NCBI GenBank assembly: GCA_017465825.1
Contig: JAFTVI010000002.1
Location: forward strand, 1-35,811
DNA length: 35,811 nt
DNA from: Clostridia bacterium
Lineage (GTDB): Bacteria; Bacillota; Clostridia; Oscillospirales; Acutalibacteraceae
Reading direction: 5' to 3'
A program made the position numbers and the translations under genes. Positions 33,544 through 35,811 of the stretch are shown piece by piece. Position 1 is the stretch's first letter, and each line of letters opens with the position of its first letter. The notes under the pieces were generated by a model. The model was not told the origin of the DNA. It searched no databases and saw nothing but the letters and a program-made list of their open reading frames with translations.

Positions 33544-33569
33544 AAAACGCATCGATATCGGTGCGTTTT
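33544..33569 (+). terminator. Terminator of the GRE-rha operon
   Basis: AAAACGCA and TGCGTTTT arms at 33544-33551 and 33562-33569, with the centre also self-complementary (one G-U pair). It lies 6 bases past the rhaD stop. The following T-run is weak. Confidence 0.7.
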
Positions 33570-33585
33570 GCATTTATTGCAGATG

Positions 33586-33614
33586 TTGACAAATTTTAGC
33601 TGACGATGTATAAT
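33586..33614 (+). promoter_or_regulatory. Sigma-A promoter of the small membrane peptide
   Basis: TTGACA, 17-bp spacer, TATAAT: a perfect consensus. The predicted transcript starts near 33621, giving a leader of about 53 bases. Confidence 0.9.
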
Positions 33615-33636
33615 TGTGTCGGTCAAAAGGCTACAG

Positions 33637-33808
33637 AAGCGGTTAGCACACTCTCCGGAAGGAGGTGTTGCATATGGATCTTACAACTTTAATCATTGTG
33701 TTACTTATTGTAATTGCAGTTGAACGAGCAATTAAGACCATAAAAAATAACCGCCCTGTTGGCGCAGGACGATTATTATTTAAATAAATCACCTTAGCTA
33801 ACCGCTTT
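33637..33808. promoter_or_regulatory. Long-range 5'/3' complementarity around the small peptide gene
   Basis: AAGCGGTTAGC in the leader (33637-33647) is the exact reverse complement of GCTAACCGCTT after the stop codon (33797-33807), plus one G-U pair. In the mRNA these would pair and close the molecule into a loop. Such end-to-end folding keeps several known type I toxin mRNAs untranslated until processed. Confidence 0.7.
33674..33787 (+). CDS. 37-residue membrane peptide, candidate type I toxin
   Basis: The peptide starts MDLTTLIIVLLIVIAVERA and ends GAGRLLFK. Residues about 3-16 form one hydrophobic segment; the rest is basic (Arg, Lys). ATG 33674 has AAGGAGG 8 bases upstream, a near-ideal ribosome site, and a perfect promoter lies further upstream. 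A second consensus promoter faces it from the 3' side and would yield an antisense RNA over its 3' end. Size, single membrane helix, basic tail and convergent antisense promoter are the pattern of type I toxins (TxpA, BsrG, Fst types). I do not recognise the sequence as a member of any of these. It stands alone between rhaD and the asparaginase gene. Confidence 0.75.
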   Translation: MDLTTLIIVLLIVIAVERAIKTIKNNRPVGAGRLLFK

Positions 33809-33823
33809 AAACGGTTACCTCTT
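33742..33823 (-). ncRNA. Candidate antisense antitoxin RNA
   Basis: From the promoter at 33830-33859 transcription would start near 33823 and run left, covering the 3' untranslated region and the last codons of the small peptide gene. A short hairpin (CGCC/GGCG, 33752-33764) followed on the minus strand by TTATTTTTT gives a plausible end near 33742, for an RNA of about 80 bases. It would pair with the 3' segment that otherwise pairs with the toxin leader. The terminator stem is short, so the 3' end is uncertain. Confidence 0.6.
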
Positions 33824-33829
33824 GGCTAT

Positions 33830-33859
33830 ATTATAGCATATGTGTTTTTTTGTTGTCAA
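33830..33859 (-). promoter_or_regulatory. Promoter of the antisense RNA
   Basis: TTGACA (33854-33859), 18-bp spacer, TATAAT (33830-33835), read on the minus strand. Both boxes match the consensus exactly. The same DNA read on the plus strand (GCTAT-ATT-ATAGC then a T-run) could end the toxin mRNA. Confidence 0.82.
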
Positions 33860-33905
33860 GTTCCGGTTTTCGGAGCTTTTTTGATATAATATAAACGGTG
33901 ATAAA

Positions 33906-35625: not shown

Positions 35626-35693
35626 ACTTCCACCTCTGTATACATTATAAATATGATGAGGGGTAATGTCAAACAATAATTTATCGCTGTCCC

Positions 35694-35811
35694 GTAGGGA
35701 GCGACGCCCTCGTCGCTCCGAATTATCCAAATCTGCGATTTGGATAATTACAACACGTTAAATCAAATTCTTAAATATTATTATTGATAAAAATGGCACA
35801 TTTTTATCAAT
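35694..35811. repeat. Four-hairpin element C, cut by the window end
   Basis: This copy of element B is complete up to the third hairpin: left end 35694-35720, first inner hairpin (AATTATCCAAATC arm), second inner hairpin (ATTGATAAAAATG arm) ending exactly at 35811. The right end should lie just beyond. It is preceded by AACAATAATTTA at 35672-35683. Differences from element B in the hairpins fall in the loops (GCA for GTA; TGC for TAC). Confidence 0.88.

Follow-up and report, generated by a model that had tools for sequence, protein, structure and literature searches.

The Fst/par system has facing promoters and a shared terminator. In the txpA/RatA system of the Bacillus subtilis skin element, the toxin gene and the antisense RNA overlap at the 3′ end of the toxin gene. 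According to PMC3531473, ~270 nt separate the txpA terminator from the mapped start, the regions of nt 96-98 and 218-220 of the mRNA are joined by a helix, the overlap of RatA with txpA is predicted to be ~120 nt, RatA is cleaved at nt 198-206 and very strong Shine-Dalgarno (SD) sequences are reported for txpA and yonT. Together with excerpts on bsrG/SR4, txpA/RatA is taken here as a precedent for RNase III cleavage upon antisense binding (PMC3531473, PMC5848175). The type I modules of C. difficile, such as CD2907.1/RCd9, are described as convergent overlapping genes, 13 modules in the genome, encoding toxins of 34-59 aa, with eight modules located in prophages or skin (PMC6563280). For the toxins of the Fst/Ldr type the motif PXXXGC is given (PMC8309996).

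Here we compare these systems with a locus in a stretch of 35,811 nt (from here: the window) from contig JAFTVI010000002.1 of a Clostridia bacterium of the Acutalibacteraceae (GCA_017465825.1). We consider this locus a probable type I toxin-antitoxin cassette, with a mode of action like that of txpA/RatA and bsrG/SR4. A first-pass annotation, made from the sequence letters, had proposed a candidate type I locus at this place. The proposal is supported, but the locus does not stand alone, as it is one of ten complete copies in its genome.

The neighbours of the cassette are a gene for a rhamnulose-1-phosphate aldolase on one side and one for a type I asparaginase on the other. In the comparison for an empty site, the asparaginase gene was found in 0/10 other genomes of the genus at E 1e-40. 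The toxin promoter at positions 33586-33614 of the plus strand reads TTGACA-17-TATAAT and the antisense promoter at 33859-33830 of the minus strand TTGACA-18-TATAAT, with a TG before the −10 box. Both match the consensus in 12/12 positions, exactly as annotated in the first pass, and the span between their outer ends is 274 nt. The toxin mRNA probably starts near 33621 with a leader (33621-33647) that forms the 5′ arm of a long-range pairing. It is followed at 33648-33668 by a hairpin, ACAC-T-CTCC-GGAA-GGAG-GTGT, that has a GNRA loop, encloses the SD sequence and was predicted by folding at −10.6 kcal/mol. The ribosome-binding site AAGGAGGTG (33659-33667) ends 6 nt before the ATG of an open reading frame at 33674-33787 including the stop codon, of which 33674-33784 translate into the 37 aa MDLTTLIIVLLIVIAVERAIKTIKNNRPVGAGRLLFK. 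Hence, the 37-residue peptide with a near-ideal ribosome site was read correctly before. The 3′ arm that pairs with the leader lies at 33797-33827, and the toxin mRNA terminator at 33858-33884 (hairpin 33858-33878) begins within the −35 box of the antisense promoter, yielding a predicted mRNA of ~262 nt.

On the minus strand, promoter, terminator and a covariance model together predict an antisense RNA, the probable antitoxin, at 33738-33823. Its predicted length of ~86 nt agrees with the about 80 nt anticipated earlier, it folds as two hairpins, the 5′ one of which is the complement of the 3′ arm, and it is nested wholly inside the mRNA. In contrast, RatA extends beyond txpA, and the shared terminator of par was not seen in the window cassette. 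The antisense terminator hairpin (33746-33777), followed by a T run, is placed inside the end of the reading frame; therefore, the bases that form this terminator also encode the basic tail of the peptide.

Two further elements of the window lie outside the cassette. A hairpin with a T run at 33544-33571, after the rhamnulose-1-phosphate aldolase gene, is a likely terminator and gave weak matches to SpF10 RNA on both strands. Positions 35680-35811 belong to a dispersed repeat of ~115-132 bp, for which 40 near-full-length places among 79 candidates were counted in the own genome, sometimes at contig ends (C4, C6, C10, C20). Contig C10 was considered as a continuation of the window and rejected, because the 127 bases that both have in common are this repeat.

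The 220-nt core at 33621-33840, which the first-pass annotation had singled out for folding, folded at −63.1 kcal/mol (z = −4.1), and 0/200 shuffles were as good. The 11 nt AAGCGGTTAGC at 33637-33647 are the exact reverse complement of 33797-33807, as claimed, and the end-to-end helix is even longer, involving ~26 nt of the leader with gaps. It follows automatically from this complementarity that the 11 nt of the leader recur in the antisense RNA, a coincidence that had been listed as an observation of its own. A search for inverted repeats at the settings used returned none in the window and two pairs in another copy (L022); it was empty in the window because the arms are interrupted, and it was folding and duplex tests that revealed the helix. 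For the pair of antisense RNA and mRNA, a higher stability was predicted than for the separate folds (−193.7 vs −105.3). The GGAGGTG of the SD sequence is predicted to be closed in the full, the 3′-truncated and the nascent mRNA, which speaks against the type I reading and leaves no simple opening by 3′ trimming of the kind known for the hok mRNA. By analogy with txpA and yonT, the strong SD sequence may compete with the hairpin.

A DNA search of the own genome yielded 13 matching stretches, resolved into the ten complete copies and two antitoxin-only remnants at C2:31358 (L021, 300-481) and C10:208 (L024, 1-330). In the remnants the antisense RNA is preserved together with its promoter (11/12 and 12/12 positions, respectively), while the toxin half was lost and replaced by other sequence. 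A copy of the dispersed repeat is located directly upstream of the remnant on C10. From 15 copies we built a covariance model of the antisense RNA, here called R1, which excludes the promoters and matches the window at 33736-33827. R1 found 12 places in the own genome and 16 in another one (G003). With the own genome counted, matches were present at E 1e-3 in 7/11 genomes of the genus and 30/200 of the family, and at E 1e-4 in 7/295 genomes of the order and 23/391 of the class. Some matches are arranged in tandem: four occur ~340 nt apart in G129, and in the single-contig genome G627 five copies follow each other in a row (C1:2361700-2364300), each of the five with an SD-preceded reading frame. 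Four of the copies in this row encode near-identical 22-aa peptides of the type MEYVYIIIFMIVFITLIESIKK, and the fifth a longer relative.

Among 135 R1 matches, 104 were examined for their anatomy, after dropping those under 35 bits, duplicates of one place where loci overlap, and L074, which lies opposite another match on the other strand; 15 of the 104 rows include source copies of R1. An antisense promoter with at least 10/12 consensus positions was found within the next 45 nt in 94/104 matches, compared to 1.3% of 2080 shuffled windows, and a sense promoter of the same quality in 72/104 matches, compared to 27/520 shuffled windows. Both promoters reached this value in 71/104 matches, so the expectation that homologues keep the facing promoters was borne out. 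A reading frame behind an SD sequence was present in 77/104, a few of which are plainly spurious. A plus-strand terminator was found in 49/94 copies only, which is a point against the type I reading. At 26 of the 45 class-level places listed outside the own genome, read in a further round (two more were read separately), the antisense promoter reached at least 10/12 in 20, the sense promoter in 14, and 19 had a reading frame. A chance origin of the anatomy of the window cassette is very unlikely because it is conserved in so many copies.

In Vescimonas fastidiosa MM35, an isolate from humans, R1 matched five places of an 861-kb replicon at E 0.01. Three of them are complete and lie on NZ_AP023416.1 near 292022, 308869 and 347057; L145 and L146 have both promoters at 12/12, and L148 has a 12/12 sense promoter with TTGACA-16-TATAAT on the other strand. 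The remaining two lack a toxin reading frame. In the PLSDB table, which is itself incomplete, no gene is annotated at the two matches within 307000-311500. Moreover, a class C copy (see below for the classes) is matched at the DNA level by four records from human faeces that bear the name bacteriophage and have no annotation, two of them over at least 80% of the copy. The cassette with class C peptides can be read in MT835905.1 (1425-1690) and MT839148.1 (660-960). With a phage copy as the query, a BLAST search of the class genomes gave matches in 2/341 genomes, the own genome among them. The window DNA itself had no match in phages, and five patterns were not found in viral contigs, a weak negative because exact patterns were used. 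No description of this cassette family was found in the open literature, as judged from titles and the beginnings of abstracts and with most subscription papers outside the search.

An alignment of 13 copies was used for the analysis of covariation. The 12-bp helix between leader and 3′ region was paired in 99.4% of cells, and three pairs had changed on both sides; the compensatory changes anticipated in the first pass thus exist. The whole structure was paired to 95.6% compared to 26-54% in slid versions, and its covariation score and count of double changes were reached by 0/500 shuffles. One of five pair measures, the number of further pair types, was not above the shuffles (148/500 reached the count) and argues against the type I reading. 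The outer arms change jointly between copies, e.g. CAAGAGG/CCTCTTG, CGTAGAGG/CCTCTACG and CATAGAGG/CCTCTATG. For a permutation test of the duplex between leader and 3′ region, the first 53 of the 104 rows were taken and the 44 with both promoters used as complete copies; the leader was cut too early in L058, L060, L090 and L091 and too late in L023. The mean energy was −37.9 kcal/mol for native partners and −32.5 ± 0.6 for re-dealt partners, and 0/5000 permutations reached the native value, but many copies are closely related, so that these figures, like the pN/pS ratios below, are inflated by kinship and are no independent counts; the double changes are the direct evidence. The motif C-GNRA-G was present in the leader region of 41/44 complete copies and in 207/2200 shuffles.

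By reading, the peptides of the ten complete copies in the own genome were assigned to three classes: class A, the window type (three copies), class B of the kind MVKVILFLFFYVIHKDTKSVTLTIKKK (four copies) and class C of the kind MPIIITLHIFKYTVTIRIKRNNRHSDK (three copies). Pooled pN/pS ratios in the reading frame were 0.51 for A (13 peptides), 0.46 for B (12) and 0.36 for C (23), compared to 0.93-1.77 in the two other frames, pointing to frame-specific purifying selection; here the 48 peptides were assigned by motif, a procedure that is biased towards conserved tails and overlooked at least L023, L031 and L041. Two copies in G001 (L046, L051) encode longer class B variants of 34 aa with an extra segment before the tail KSVTITIRKK, and their best sense promoter reaches only 8/12. 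For the window peptide, AlphaFold predicted a helix spanning residues 3-25 (pLDDT of 94 for the first 20 residues; low pTM of 0.42; small alignment of 11 rows) and, with low confidence, a short second helix at 30-35. This is in agreement with the helical peptide with a basic tail described in the first pass. For a class C peptide (L095), strands at residues 2-9 and 12-19 were predicted (pLDDT of 87 for the first 20 residues; low pTM of 0.32; small alignment of 21 rows; like the window peptide, it is short), giving class C a predicted beta-hairpin fold.

Sequence searches with the window peptide in Pfam, NCBIfam, PHROGs, PADLOC and PDB gave no family, consistent with the lack of recognition in the first pass; the best PHROGs match had E 0.13 and is annotated as of unknown function. 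That no toxin family is matched is a further point against the type I reading. Representatives of the three classes had no match over the cut-off in Pfam and NCBIfam, none at E 0.1 in PHROGs and none at E 1 in PADLOC, and one phage class C peptide matched Pfam MpPF26 below the cut-off (E 0.022). In phages and plasmids the window peptide had no match at E 1; a class B peptide had none in plasmids.

By its RNA, the cassette resembles bsrG/SR4. Among RNA families, Rfam RF01412 (BsrG) matched the window cassette best, with 32.1 bits and E 6.8e-6, and did not reach the cut-off of 55. The alignment covers the full length of the model (1-259), including the long-range pairing of 5′ and 3′ ends and the SD hairpin, with some non-standard pairs. 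At E 0.1, BsrG matched only 7/12 further loci, which, like the low score, tells against the type I reading, and it was over the cut-off in 0/11 genomes of the genus. The 10 BsrG matches listed for the genus coincide with R1 loci in every case; among 14 control genomes, B. subtilis was the only one with a match. Besides the score, the cassette differs from bsrG/SR4 in its peptide, which is unrelated by profile, and in the high copy number. Against the Hol_Tox profile of TxpA/BsrG-type toxins (PF16935, cut-off 23.3 bits), the window peptide remained unmatched at E 10, and the representatives of classes A to C likewise had none, which also separates them from txpA/RatA. However, at four of the loci to which R1 leads in other Clostridia, the peptide exceeds the Hol_Tox cut-off: L073 (E 1.1e-7), L079 (7.2e-9), L166 (1.9e-12) and L160 (4.7e-7). 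In each of the first two, the antisense promoter scores 12/12 and the sense promoter 10/12, and the 5′/3′ helix folds; the promoters are middling in L166 (10 and 9 of 12) and weak in L160 (7 and 9). The suggestion of a possibly undescribed family thus holds for the peptide, which matches no known family, but less so for the RNA frame, which resembles BsrG below the cut-off and carries Hol_Tox at related loci. With Fst/par the cassette shares the facing promoters and a short helical membrane peptide; the window peptide, on reading, lacks the PXXXGC motif. The convergent overlapping layout resembles the C. difficile modules, a likeness by description. We read the window cassette as a divergent, expanded branch of the BsrG-like architecture with new peptides. 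On the best reading, it works like txpA/RatA and bsrG/SR4, yet falls outside BsrG by the Rfam cut-off and outside Hol_Tox by its peptide.

Signs of shuffling were found between copies. The reading frame of one G006 copy equals that of the class A copy of G004 save two bases, and its terminator, linker and 3′ part equal, save a few bases, the class B copy of G004, located 0.9 kb from the A copy. Among the 39 of the 44 complete copies that had a class, the nearest frame belonged to another peptide class in 6, two of these (L064, L065) on weak similarity. These sequence patterns point to an exchange of peptide and antitoxin halves between copies. The best explanation for three classes in the ten own-genome copies is an RNA frame that constitutes a conserved regulatory cassette with an exchangeable reading frame.

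The many dispersed copies, the tandem arrays and the inverted-repeat ends that include the promoter boxes would also be expected of a miniature mobile element or dispersed inverted repeat, in which the arms are terminal inverted repeats and the reading frame is accidental. We regard this as very improbable: the purifying selection is specific to the reading frame, the SD sequence and GNRA hairpin are conserved, both arms carry promoters at or near consensus, and the arms co-vary between copies instead of showing a single fixed sequence. A small membrane protein that is harmless and serves in housekeeping or under stress, with the same antisense control, would fit the position of the window copy between metabolic genes, and the toxicity of the peptide is itself deduced. 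It is an unlikely reading, as several unrelated peptide classes and the Hol_Tox toxins of related loci stand under the same double control, an indirect argument.

Both the own genome and Vescimonas have antitoxin-only copies, which, together with the class C cassette on human-faecal records called bacteriophage, raise the question whether the antisense RNAs act mainly in trans, such copies serving as anti-addiction devices against phage toxins or as a buffer. This would be compatible with a type I function. In the own genome, non-cognate antisense/mRNA pairs share perfect runs of 7-34 nt (median 17), and some cross-talk between copies is possible from their sequences; cognate pairs, in contrast, are perfectly complementary over at least 88 nt. 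The remnants may also simply be decaying; one of them has the dispersed repeat directly upstream. A predominant action in trans appears improbable.

For the type I toxin-antitoxin reading, two hallmarks were found: a small peptide reading frame with a ribosome-binding site that is under selection and, at the sequence level, an antisense gene that has a promoter and a terminator to itself and whose RNA is complementary to the toxin mRNA. We infer that the cassette is transcribed in cells, including the antisense RNA, and that the peptide is toxic. The pairing of 5′ leader and 3′ region and the GNRA-capped SD hairpin would keep translation of the folded mRNA poor. From the opposite promoter, the two-hairpin RNA of ~86 nt would be made. 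Over its full length it is complementary to the mRNA 3′ half, which it would bind, probably first at the hairpin loops. This binding would displace the 5′ arm and create a substrate for RNase III, and by analogy with txpA/RatA and bsrG/SR4 cleavage at the window mRNA should follow. Once the antisense supply falls, surviving mRNA would be translated and the 37-aa peptide would insert into the membrane and slow or stop growth.

More tentatively, one RNA frame may serve across Clostridia as a general cassette for exchangeable toxic peptides, comprising Hol_Tox, other helical families and the beta-hairpin class C, with recombined halves and with copies on chromosomes and in gut phages. To our knowledge, a beta-hairpin class C would have no predecessor with this fold among the membrane-acting type I toxins. 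Similarity searches have difficulty with peptides of 20-40 aa, and here it is the RNA frame that finds the family. Unrelated peptides, one class perhaps of a different fold, are brought under one regulatory device, which makes it testable whether the RNA rather than the toxin is the unit kept by evolution. The finding also gives a function to unannotated intergenic spaces of gut Clostridia, including those of the cultured human isolate V. fastidiosa MM35.
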